From Sphingobacteriales bacterium (lineage in GTDB: Bacteria; Bacteroidota; Bacteroidia; Chitinophagales; CAIOSU01), in the NCBI GenBank assembly GCA_027483645.1, contig JAIXUD010000020.1, forward strand, positions 1 to 64,000: a DNA stretch of 64,000 nucleotides. Direction: 5' to 3'. The position numbers and the translations under genes were made by a program. Numbering within the stretch: position 1 is the first letter of the stretch; each line of letters begins with the position of its first letter. This document shows positions 15,845-19,928 of this stretch, one piece after another. The notes below the pieces were generated by a model that did not search any database, was not told the origin of the DNA, and saw nothing but the letters and a program-made list of their open reading frames with translations.

Positions 15845-15874
15845 GTCTTGATACTTGATACTTACTACTTGATA
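15845..15874 (+). repeat. Start-proximal dispersed repeat, copy 1
   Basis: A 30-bp sequence built on CTTGATACTTGATACT-x-ACTACTTGATA. Copies also occur on the minus strand at 56977-57004 and 63914-63943; this one differs from the last at one base in 30. In all three it reads in the same direction as the gene that follows and ends within about 0-20 bp of its start. Confidence 0.75.
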
Positions 15875-16552
15875 CTGAAAGACCAAATACTCTACGAAGA
15901 CAACCACCTACTGGTAGTAAACAAACTGGCTGGCCAGCTTTCGCAAGGCGACGAAACGGGCGACCCGTCGCTTGCCGACGACCTGAAGGTATACATAAAG
16001 GAGAAGTACAACAAGCCAGGCGAGGTGTTCCTAGGTGTGGTGCATCGCTTGGATAGGCCCACCAGCGGCGTAATATTATATGCCCGTACCAGCAAGGCCC
16101 TGGTGCGCCTTAACGAGATGCTGCGCGAGCGCACCGTGAAGAAAACCTATTGGGCATTGGTAGCTAACCGCCCCCAGCAAGAGGATGCCACGCTAAAGCA
16201 CTGGCTGCTGAAACAGGGCAGTAACAACACCAGCGTGGTAGTATCGCCCAAGCATAAATTGGGCAAGGAAGCCACCTTGCACTATACCCTTATAAAAAGC
16301 CTGAAAGAGCGCCACCTGCTGGAGGTAAACTTGGAAACGGGCCGCCACCATCAGATACGGGTGCAGCTCAACAGCATCGGCAGCCCCATCGTAGGCGACC
16401 TGAAGTATGGCTACCGAACTGCCAACGCCGATAAGAGCATCTGCCTACACGCCCGCCGTATTGAATTCATACACCCCGTGCAAAAAACTAAAATGACCTT
16501 TACGGCACCGCTGCCCAAATTGGATGTTTGGCGCGAGTTTGAGGGGGCTTAG
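15869..16552 (+). CDS. RluA-family 23S rRNA/tRNA pseudouridine synthase
   Basis: The family converts uridine to pseudouridine in rRNA or tRNA. The catalytic motif H-R-L-D-R-P-T-S-G holds the essential Asp (residue 62 from this start), and L-x-T-G-R-x-H-Q-I-R-V-Q-L is the second family motif. There is no S4 domain, as in short single-domain members. The start is uncertain: there is no ATG, the frame opens from a TTG at 15830, and residues before L-K-D-Q-I-L-Y-E-D-N-H are encoded by a dispersed repeat. I place the start at the TTG at 15869, which gives 227 residues. The target uridine cannot be told. Confidence 0.85.
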   Translation: MILKDQILYEDNHLLVVNKLAGQLSQGDETGDPSLADDLKVYIKEKYNKPGEVFLGVVHRLDRPTSGVILYARTSKALVRLNEMLRERTVKKTYWALVANRPQQEDATLKHWLLKQGSNNTSVVVSPKHKLGKEATLHYTLIKSLKERHLLEVNLETGRHHQIRVQLNSIGSPIVGDLKYGYRTANADKSICLHARRIEFIHPVQKTKMTFTAPLPKLDVWREFEGA

Positions 16553-16597: not shown

Positions 16598-16705
16598 GCG
16601 TCATTGCGAAGGCCTACATGATGTTGCGGTTACCAATGCCTTGCAATGGCCTGTGGCTACTTTTCTCACTGCTTGCAGTAATCCCCTGCGACGAAGAATG
16701 ATATT
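16598..16705 (+). repeat. CGTCATTGCGAAGGCCTAC repeat, copy A (diverged)
   Basis: It shares its start (GCGTCATTGCGAAGGCCTAC), its middle (CAATGGCCTGTGGC) and its end (AATCCCCTGC-x-ACGAAGAAT) with copies B and C, but has an extra ~20 bp inside. It lies between the rluA-type gene and copy B. Confidence 0.75.
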
Positions 16706-16742
16706 CCCTAACCGATATATGATTACCATCCCCACACAATGC

Positions 16743-16826
16743 GCGTCATTGCGAAGGCCTACTTAGTCTCGCCATTATGTGATGCCCTTCAATGGCCTGT
16801 GGCAATCCCCTGCCACGAAGAATAAT
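16743..16826 (+). repeat. CGTCATTGCGAAGGCCTAC repeat, copy B
   Basis: It ends 55 bp before the GIY-YIG start. It contains a GTGGCA/TGCCAC stem and matches the reverse complement of copy C at nearly every position. Confidence 0.85.
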
Positions 16827-16880
16827 ATGCACGAGTCCGACCCCCTATTTCATTATTTTGAAAATTACTAATTTCAGTTG

Positions 16881-17186
16881 ATGAAAAAAGGCGGATACGT
16901 TTACATCCTCACCAATGAACACCACACAACGCGATACATAGGTGTTACTGCAAGTTTGAAAAGACGAGTTTACGAACACAGAGAAAAAATAGACCCAAAC
17001 AGTTTTACTGCGCGTTACCACATTAGCAAGTTGGTCTATTACGAGGGATTTCACTCCATAGAAGATGCTATTGCCAGAGAGAAACAGCTAAAAGCAGGTA
17101 CTAGAAGGAAAAAAGAACTATTGATTAGGTCTAAAAATGCCGCATGGAATGACTTATGGGAAGAGATACAGGATTTTCTTGACTGA
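16881..17186 (+). CDS. Small GIY-YIG nuclease-domain protein
   Basis: A 101-residue protein made only of a GIY-YIG fold. G-Y-V-Y-I-L-T (the GIY-like strand) is followed by T-R-Y-I-G-V-T (the YIG-like strand); an Arg in L-K-R-R-V-Y-E-H and a Glu in E-D-A-I-A-R-E-K-Q-L-K complete the pattern of the YhbQ/UPF0213-type group. The ATG at 16881 follows an in-frame TTG at 16878. Such stand-alone proteins are numerous in Bacteroidota and their function is mostly unknown; the fold is that of homing and repair nucleases. The gene is bracketed by inverted copies of a dispersed repeat, so it may be cargo or the actor of a small mobile unit. Confidence 0.88.
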   Translation: MKKGGYVYILTNEHHTTRYIGVTASLKRRVYEHREKIDPNSFTARYHISKLVYYEGFHSIEDAIAREKQLKAGTRRKKELLIRSKNAAWNDLWEEIQDFLD

Positions 17187-17217
17187 TGTTGTGAAATGGC
17201 TCATCGGTTGTGGTAAA

Positions 17218-17302
17218 TCATCCTTCGTGGCAGGGGATTGCCACAGGCCATTGTAGGGCATCACAAATTGCGAGACCGAGTAGGCCTTCGCAATGACGTA
17301 CG
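17218..17302 (-). repeat. CGTCATTGCGAAGGCCTAC repeat, copy C (inverted)
   Basis: The minus strand reads CGTCATTGCGAAGGCCTAC to CCCCTGCCACGAAGGAT, the inverted partner of copy B. It begins 32 bp after the GIY-YIG stop and ends 24 bp before the rpmF terminator. Confidence 0.85.
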
Positions 17303-17427: not shown

Positions 17428-17619
17428 TTACGCCGTTGCCTTAGCAGCAACAATCACACGGCCCTTGTAGTAAAGGTCACCGTTAATGGTGTATGCACGG
17501 TGAAACAAGTGCGGTGCACCGGTTTCTTTGCAGATGCTCACGTTAGGTGCTTCTGCTTTGTAGTGTGTACGACGTTTGTCGCGGCGCGTTTTGGAGATCT
17601 TTCGCTTAGGATGTGCCAT
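17428..17619 (-). CDS. rpmF: 50S ribosomal protein L32
   Basis: A 63-residue basic protein starting [17 protein letters not shown], the universal L32 N-terminus. Only one Cys (C-K-E-T) is left where zinc-binding L32 forms have four, so this is a zinc-independent type. It lies 14 bp after yceD, the classical yceD-rpmF pair, and is followed by a strong terminator. Confidence 0.97.
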
Positions 17620-17633
17620 GGCTCAATTATAAT

Positions 17634-18212
17634 TTATTTCAGTTTCTTTAATGCCGACCATCGCTGGTCTATATCTTCGTCATTGTTATTATCGTCGTCA
17701 TTCTCGTTCTCTCCATCGCCTTCCTTGCCTTCGGCAAAGTAGCCCAGCTTCTCTAGCACCACTTTATTGCAACCAGGGCCACCAATCTCTTCAGGCTTGC
17801 AGCCTTTCTGTAGCGGTATGCTCAAGTTTACGAACTCATACACCAGATGCCCTACATCCAAGTGGGTTTCGTTGGTTGGCAAGAAGATAACATCCTCTTC
17901 CTCATCCATCCCGTCGGCATCTTGGCTGAATTTTACGAAAACCGTAAACTCATCCAACAGCTCTTGGTCCATCTCGTTTAAGCAGCGGTCGCAAGTGGCC
18001 TTAATGGTGCCTTGCACATAAAATGTGAGCACTATCATGGTGGTGCGTTTATCAAGCACCATTTCCACTTCTACATTGCTGCCCGTAATGAGCTCGCTAC
18101 CTTCAAAATACGTAAAGAACTTATCCTCTATATGGAACTTGAAGCTCGTTTCCCCCAACTTTAACCCTATAAAAGGGATGACAAATTCACGAAGGGCAAC
18201 AGCACGAGACAC
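17634..18212 (-). CDS. yceD: YceD family protein (DUF177)
   Basis: A 192-residue cytosolic protein. The C-D-R-C-L-N-E motif (about residues 78-84) and the following acidic segment mark DUF177/YceD, a family linked to 23S rRNA accumulation and co-transcribed with rpmF in most bacteria. A later C-K-P-E-E-x-G-G-P-G-C-N pair of Cys is also typical. The tail is very acidic with Asp/Asn runs. The start is GTG at 18212; no ATG lies upstream in frame. A TATCTTTG promoter box sits 24 bp upstream. Confidence 0.88.
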   Translation of the reverse strand: MSRAVALREFVIPFIGLKLGETSFKFHIEDKFFTYFEGSELITGSNVEVEMVLDKRTTMIVLTFYVQGTIKATCDRCLNEMDQELLDEFTVFVKFSQDADGMDEEEDVIFLPTNETHLDVGHLVYEFVNLSIPLQKGCKPEEIGGPGCNKVVLEKLGYFAEGKEGDGENENDDDNNNDEDIDQRWSALKKLK

Positions 18213-19512: not shown

Positions 19513-19908
19513 TTAAGCACTTTGTTTTTTGGTTTTTAAATGCTTAACGAAACCGTTTATTTTCTTGTTCAAGGAGTCAATTTTTGCACTAAAAAGGTCA
19601 AACGACTCTTTGCTAATATATGCACAATCTAAAGCACAAATAAGGTGCTCTTTGGTTTCATGCAATGAACCACGGGAATGTCGACAAAATTGAATAAACT
19701 CTTGGTAATGGTATCGTCCAAATCCCTCTGCAATATTTGCGCTTATCGATCTACTACTTCGAACCACCTGATCAACTAATTTATATTTCTCTTCGACGGG
19801 GAATTGTCTTGTCAAGTTATAAATGTCATTTCTCAATTGTCTGGCCTCTTGCCAAATCAGTAAATCCTCAAAAGACAATACCCCTTTATAATTAGACGAT
19901 GAATCCAT
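19513..19908 (-). CDS. Four-helix-bundle protein of the S23/intervening-sequence (bAvd-like) family
   Basis: A 131-residue helical protein. L-S-F-E-D-L-L-I-W-Q-E-A, then V-V-R-S-S-R-S-I-S-A-N-I-A-E-G-F-G-R (about residues 55-72) and E-F-I-Q-F-C-R-H-S-R-G-S are diagnostic. The family was first seen in intervening sequences of 23S rRNA genes and shares its fold with the Avd protein of diversity-generating retroelements. Here there is no rRNA, reverse transcriptase or template repeat nearby. Its role is unknown. The ATG at 19908 is preferred to a TTG at 19917. It sits alone between inverted 35-bp repeats and looks inserted between pepA and pdxA. Confidence 0.9.
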   Translation of the reverse strand: MDSSSNYKGVLSFEDLLIWQEARQLRNDIYNLTRQFPVEEKYKLVDQVVRSSRSISANIAEGFGRYHYQEFIQFCRHSRGSLHETKEHLICALDCAYISKESFDLFSAKIDSLNKKINGFVKHLKTKKQSA

Positions 19909-19928
19909 AAAGACCAATGACGTAATAC

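Follow-up and report, generated by a model that had tools for sequence, protein, structure and literature searches.

A gene for a 101-residue GIY-YIG nuclease, enclosed on its own by two inverted REP palindromes, is probably a minimal mobile element whose only protein spreads both itself and its cognate REPs. This reading builds on what we observed, i.e., the association of such genes with such repeats, the specificity of their pairing, the presence or absence of whole units, internal sequence shared with gene-less repeat pairs, purifying selection on the gene, and the GIY-YIG fold of its product; recognition, cleavage, mobilization, and repair-based insertion are inferred.

A single nuclease gene between inverted palindromes

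The window, i.e., the whole 64-kb stretch of DNA that was analyzed, contains only three members of the repeat (copies A, B, and C; Table 1), and all of them lie around the GIY-YIG gene, so that the pairing of repeat and gene at this locus is more than chance. Copies B and C, each ~83 bp long, are inverted and around 91% to 92% identical, with ~390 nt separating their arms and the 101-residue GIY-YIG ORF as the sole gene between them, while copy A is 79% to 82% identical to copy B. The initial annotation had described inverted repeats of about 90% identity enclosing nothing but this gene as well as a diverged third copy just upstream, and both descriptions proved correct. The inner GTGGCA/TGCCAC hairpin that it had described for each copy does fold, with copy C doing so better than shuffled sequences (z -2.3), although copy B alone folds no better than its shuffles (z -1.1). 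What defines the repeat is an outer hairpin of the form CGTC-ATTGCGAAGGCC...GGCC-x-GCAAT-C. The same B-gene-C architecture is also found in L032, L033, and many other genomes, and a search of Rfam with the window locus gave no match to a known RNA family.

Table 1. Features of the locus, in window coordinates.
Feature	Position	Strand	Remarks
Proposed mobile unit (REP copy B, GIY-YIG gene, REP copy C)	16744..17298	+	~555 bp; CGTC tags form both outer ends
101-aa GIY-YIG nuclease gene (PF01541)	16881..17186	+	Pfam GIY-YIG E 1.5e-13
REP copy B	16744..16826	+	Outer CGTC tag at 16744
REP copy C	17217..17298	-	Outer CGTC tag ending at 17298
REP copy A, diverged tandem copy upstream	16599..16716	+	Tag at 16599; then conserved linker AAGAATGATATTC..AACCGAT
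Left internal linker, REP B to start codon	16811..16880	+	Like centers of gene-less pairs: 5.7 bits, above all 300 shuffles, weakly
Right internal linker, stop codon to REP C	17187..17230	-	Like centers of gene-less pairs: 16.3 bits, above all 300 shuffles
rluA-like pseudouridine synthase gene, left neighbor	15872..16552	+	Syntenic in three congeners
rpmF (L32), right neighbor	17428..17619	-	Syntenic in three congeners
yceD	17634..18212	-	Anchor for finding orthologous loci in congeners

Elsewhere in the window (19513-19917), directly downstream of pdxA, a gene for a 23S rRNA-intervening-sequence (four-helix bundle) protein has flanks with a low-complexity inverted repeat (GGTTGATTGGTT type).

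The repeat is a long-loop variant of the CGTC-tagged REPs

Copy B has 57 matches across the window's genome, where sequence searches gave 119 GTCATTGCGA tags as compared to 13 for the reversed pattern, and most genomic copies occur as inverted pairs (+ / -) that contain no gene and are ~220 bp long (range about 184-243 bp). The repeat is therefore genome-wide, which rules out that it is private to the GIY-YIG gene.

The CGTC-tagged REP superfamily has been described as high-copy palindromes with an unpaired terminal CGTC or TGTC (or CCTC) tag, a stem of 8-9 bp that starts with AT, a loop of 4-5 bp, a C-rich tail, and an arrangement in inverted (HH) dimers; its listed groups include Azospirillum, Sinorhizobium, Neisseria (with dRS3 as a member), and Novosphingobium, and in 2013 these groups were said to “lack a dedicated transposase” (Di Nocera 2013, PMC3733652). 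The window repeat fits this superfamily and meets most of the description: CGTC forms the outer end of copies A, B, and C, the stem starts with A-T pairs (CGTC-ATTGC...GCAAT), and the 119 tags, mostly in + / - pairs, satisfy the requirements of high copy number and inverted dimers. Only the lengths of stem and loop do not agree, with the window copies having a long internal loop (about 67-bp hairpin), so that they are a long-loop variant of the CGTC REPs. Compact hairpin forms are present in Proteobacteria and in other repeat types.

GIY-YIG genes of this subfamily are flanked by outward-tagged hairpins

We compared 199 relatives of the window gene with 466 other genes of the same stretches using a detector that requires a GTC-A(T/C) hairpin with outward-pointing tag on both sides of a gene and has the AT/AC stem start built in. 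Such hairpins flanked 121 of the 199 GIY-YIG genes (60.8%) and 17 of the 466 controls (3.6%; OR 41), and 1.2% of mono-shuffled flanks passed the two-sided test. The p-value of about 1e-59 is only nominal because the relatives were gathered by their similarity to the window protein, and genomes are shared among some of them, so that they are not phylogenetically independent. When no stem was required, k-mer enrichment also yielded GTCATT, CGTCAT, and TTGCGA, and in 197 of the 242 repeats beside GIY-YIG genes, GTC was preceded by C or T. Inverted repeats in the flanks reached a score of at least 30 for 42.7% of GIY-YIG genes versus 1.7% of controls, of at least 40 for 25.6% versus 0.4%, and of at least 50 for 12.6% versus no controls. 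Two-sided hairpins were likewise present at 50 of 75 genes when only named genomes were considered and at 11 of 15 named non-Bacteroidota loci. The strict two-sided test was failed by 39% of the sampled GIY-YIG genes, and among distant GIY-YIG proteins (profile E>1e-15) none of 8 had two-sided hairpins; this fading of the signal indicates that the association belongs to the window protein's subfamily.

One outcome that had been named beforehand as refuting the proposed pairing, a repeat spread genome-wide without enrichment at GIY-YIG genes, materialized in its first half only, since such repeats are genome-wide but very strongly enriched at these genes (61% versus 3.6%). The RAYT-like partnership of a GIY-YIG enzyme with a palindrome, as it had been suggested for this locus, is supported as an association, also by repeat types that follow the enzyme clade (see below) and by its occurrence in many phyla, and its mechanism is inferred. 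In the open-access PMC literature, we found no paper tying GIY-YIG proteins to REPs, RAYTs, REPINs, or mobile palindromic repeats, though this absence is no proof.

Loci from named organisms came from plasmid-collection records, some of which are chromosomes filed there. CGTC REPs enclose GIY-YIG genes in Shinella, Rhizobium CIAT894, Sphingobium, Azospirillum lipoferum 4B, and Neisseria gonorrhoeae, where the REP is of the dRS3 type (GTCATTCCCGCGCAGGCGGGAATC), and a near-intact REP pair does so in S. meliloti Ak57. In Novosphingobium aromaticivorans the gene is enclosed by CGTCGCCCC-type inverted repeats and in Planktothrix by GTCATTCTGAG/GTCATCCTGAA hairpins; in Aeromonas and Photobacterium it is flanked on one side only. 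The pairing of enzyme and repeat recurs across many bacterial phyla, Proteobacteria included, and is broader than the initial annotation saw, spanning many repeat types.

Two further observations were made in this survey. A 61-bp repeat beside the GIY-YIG gene of Sinorhizobium K101 (L263 flanks) occurs at no fewer than 40 places per chromosome record and about 29 on the megaplasmid; it may correspond to the rhizobial mosaic repeat RIME. At G240:C1:2899253-2900422, four small, distant GIY-YIG genes (weak matches) lie in tandem with ~320-bp spacing.

Repeat type follows the enzyme clade

Left and right repeats of one gene shared their stem in 50 cases versus 17.5 expected by permutation, and stem sharing between genes became more frequent with protein identity, being 8% at 35-45% and 78% at 65-80%. 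Repeat type correlated with enzyme phylogeny (Mantel r 0.447, permutation maximum 0.141), also when the commonest type was left out (r 0.211 versus a maximum of 0.080). Pairs from related genomes add to this Mantel signal, a problem from which the contrast of paralogs within one genome is free. In the window's genome, two further close paralogs (79% and 65% identity) both lie between copies of this tag that are oriented as at the window gene, and all three close paralogs including the window gene carry the ATTGCG type, whereas diverged paralogs are enclosed by other inverted repeats of the same design, e.g., TGTCATCCCGAG... or GTCACCCTGAG....

These data bear on the possibility that gene and repeat are mere passengers, with REPs serving only as terminators or boundaries and gathering alongside small GIY-YIG genes in tolerant intergenic spots. 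Both are indeed intergenic, and unrelated small nuclease genes (DUF559) occupy such spots as well, e.g., between sufB and sufC. However, control genes of the same stretches are rarely flanked, small ones included (3.6% and 6.4%, respectively), and neither the consistent polarity nor repeat types that match on both sides and follow the enzyme clade would be expected of passengers, which makes simple co-localization very unlikely.

The standalone DUF559 (Vsr-like) nuclease genes of the same phylum had two-sided GTCA REPs in 0 of 14 cases. Inverted repeats with a score of at least 30 were found at 7 of these 14 Bacteroidota genes, and DUF559 loci are L313:1442-1852 as well as L322, L323, L325, L329, L330, L335, and L338. 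Several of the repeats that flank DUF559 genes are C-rich, e.g., CCTCTCCTTGAGGAGAGG or, by eye, CCCCTCCCCTTCAGGGGAGGGG in Sphingomonas, and DUF559 with its C-rich repeat may be a second, independent pairing of nuclease and palindrome.

Whole units are present or absent at orthologous loci

One unit of the window's genome stands between rsmI and lnt, and three congeners have these genes adjacent without it; no repeat is left in the rsmI-lnt gap of G001 and G002. Similarly, A. lipoferum 4B carries a unit between sufB and sufC that is absent from A. ramasamyi, A. oryzae, and B510 despite flanks of 95-97% identity, and the gap of A. ramasamyi and A. oryzae contains no REP. Two Sinorhizobium loci are polymorphic for the unit in opposite directions, and G129 has two identical GIY-YIG genes within a common unit of ~0.66 kb whose right edge falls at the outer tag, while its left edge is complicated by surrounding REP arrays. 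A target-site duplication could not be delimited because the intergenic sequences of the empty sites have diverged too far.

The sufB-sufC gap was found occupied more than once (L262, L313, L314), by GIY-YIG units in A. lipoferum and Shinella PSBB067 and by a DUF559 unit in Sphingomonas, which suggests that insertions are tolerated at this point within the suf operon.

These empty sites matter for the main rival to a mobile element, a homing endonuclease gene that parasitizes existing REP pairs by cutting them and copying itself in through break repair, with the REPs spreading otherwise. In its favor, the GIY-YIG fold occurs among homing nucleases, the model of group I intron endonucleases gives weak matches to 28 of 41 relatives, and the gene sits exactly inside a repeat pair with linker sequence that is common to empty pairs. 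Yet under homing, an empty site should still hold a REP pair without the gene and not be free of repeats like the rsmI-lnt and sufB-sufC gaps described above, where it looks as though gene and repeats had arrived or disappeared jointly. In most of the genus, moreover, the number of repeats goes with the gene. Given the repeat-free empty sites, we disfavor homing and hold it to be unlikely, but it is not excluded.

Unlike these two loci, three others, i.e., that of the window and two in Sinorhizobium, have empty alleles in which a joined-ends hairpin persists. The initial annotation had proposed comparing orthologous rpmF-rluA loci for empty sites; in all three congeners the unit is missing and only its joined outer ends are kept, as CGTCATTGCAATGACG or a one-base variant that is nearly unique in those genomes. 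The outcome that would have spoken against the proposal, relatives with the gene at this locus but without the repeats, did not occur, as the congeners lack both. Comparable joined-ends hairpins are kept at the loci of Sinorhizobium K101 and S. meliloti Ak57. Such scars suggest the former presence of a unit or repeat pair and may go back to excision or to slippage, which could make them because inverted palindromes contain direct repeats; we do not claim that the enzyme made them. The joined-ends palindrome GTCATTGCAATGAC was rejected as a common excision scar, as only 4 of 61 genomes have it, each at a single site, and for two of these genomes the site is the window locus.

Repeat abundance and gene-less derivatives

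In the genus, tags number 119 and 39 in the two genomes that carry the cognate gene, and 8 and 7, i.e., background, in G002 and G003, which lack it; in G004 (78% complete), we counted 50 tags and did not find the cognate gene. Across the phylum sample, at least 5 copies of GTCATTGCGARG were present in 32 of 89 genomes with the gene versus 5 of 109 without (p 2e-8). A strict dependence of the repeats on the gene is ruled out by G062 of the same class, which has 582 copies of GTCATTGCGARG but no detected GIY-YIG relative. Repeat maintenance thus needs no resident gene, and the repeats of G062 are either orphans or depend on a different enzyme.

When the linkers of gene-bearing units were scored with a model of the centers of gene-less pairs, 6 of 7 surpassed all 300 shuffles, albeit weakly for copy B. 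Since gene-less pairs thereby share unit sequence beyond the arms, they look MITE-like, and as far as sequence comparison can tell, gene units appear to relate to gene-less pairs as IS elements relate to MITEs. S. meliloti Ak57 even has a mini-unit (L257:2110-2300) consisting of the left REP, the 3' end of the GIY-YIG ORF, and the right REP beside a full unit.

The enzyme and a proposed mechanism

PF01541 was found in 41 of 41 relatives, with Y8, Y19, R29, H33, E67, and N86 as invariant residues, and the domain with its catalytic Tyr, Tyr, Arg, and Glu (Y8, Y19, R29, E67) meets the criterion of the GIY-YIG superfamily. An AF2 model of the window protein (pLDDT 94) has UPF0213 protein BH0048 (1zg2) as its nearest fold, followed with weaker E-values by Slx1 and the UvrC N-domain. 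Slx1 is a branched-DNA nuclease, and the Slx1-like fold predicted by the model would be compatible with hairpin processing without proving it. The gene is under strong purifying selection, with pN/pS values of 0.13-0.25 relative to paralogs at near-saturated synonymous sites.

Strong purifying selection and the structure-specific repair nucleases Slx1 and UvrC as closest folds could also be expected of a domesticated housekeeping enzyme that acts on REP cruciforms by trimming or resolving them and has stayed close to this substrate, any spread being incidental or ancient, and the joined-ends scars would fit such hairpin removal. That the presence of the unit varies between close relatives and that up to 9 diverse GIY-YIG copies occur per genome argues against this idea, which we consider highly improbable.

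For the mobile element that we favor, i.e., one small GIY-YIG gene between inverted REP palindromes that belong to the (C/T)GTC-A(T/C) superfamily, we propose that the nuclease would recognize its own cognate REP hairpins when they are exposed during replication and cut at or near the tag, upon which host repair or replication would copy or join the unit elsewhere without the strand transfer of a classical transposase. Gene-less inverted pairs with the same ends (REPIN/MITE-like) may be moved in trans. GIY-YIG enzymes hydrolyze DNA without a covalent intermediate, so that insertion would most likely be completed by host repair or replication. We count against the mobile-element reading that G062 and G004 have repeats without the gene, that a sizable share of genes fails the two-sided test, that sampling was not independent, that no target-site duplication was delimited, that slippage is an alternative for the scars, and that hydrolytic nucleases alone cannot join DNA.

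Significance and comparison with known systems

CGTC REPs are widespread, their enzyme was reported missing in 2013, and a named, cloneable candidate is now available in well-studied genera; we regard the GIY-YIG enzymes of this subfamily as the strongest candidates so far for the unidentified enzyme that moves (C/T)GTC REPs. It seems to us an evenly balanced question whether they represent a new class of prokaryotic mobile element with a hydrolytic GIY-YIG nuclease as sole protein that drives itself and the whole (C/T)GTC REP superfamily via host repair, a principle that may be general (DUF559, Vsr-like nucleases with unrelated palindromes). If so, repair-dependent movement by a nuclease of ~100 residues would rank with the smallest known autonomous mobile systems, and palindromic repeat populations would have recruited unrelated enzyme classes more than once.

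By sequence and fold, the nearest solved structures are UPF0213 and other small stand-alone GIY-YIG proteins (1zg2, 1ywl), entries from structural genomics whose function is unknown. Free-standing GIY-YIG homing endonucleases (phage seg, intron-encoded) share the catalytic domain and the nature of a small selfish nuclease gene, whereas our unit carries its own inverted REP ends, has a genome-wide gene-less family, and is missing together with its repeats from the empty sites of two loci. Like IS elements with their MITEs, it has a gene between inverted repeats, gene-less copies with the same ends, and an internally deleted intermediate (Ak57), but no transposase of known type and no identified target duplication, its sole protein being the GIY-YIG nuclease. 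With the CGTC REP superfamily, the repeats share tag, AT stem start, C-rich tail, inverted dimers, and occurrence in species listed in PMC3733652, which gives no dedicated enzyme, whereas here they enclose a GIY-YIG gene. The parts and the logic of a REP-plus-enzyme system have precedents, above all in the REPtron (RAYT/TnpA_REP, GTAG REPs, REPINs), where short, tagged intergenic palindromes mostly in inverted pairs similarly flank a nuclease-type gene and are matched to their enzyme by type. The REPtron enzyme is an HUH-Y1 transposase and its tag GTAG, while the enzyme here is a metal-dependent GIY-YIG nuclease and the tag (C/T)GTC, so that our unit does not belong to the RAYT family, and it further differs by several gene copies per genome and by whole units that are polymorphic between relatives.
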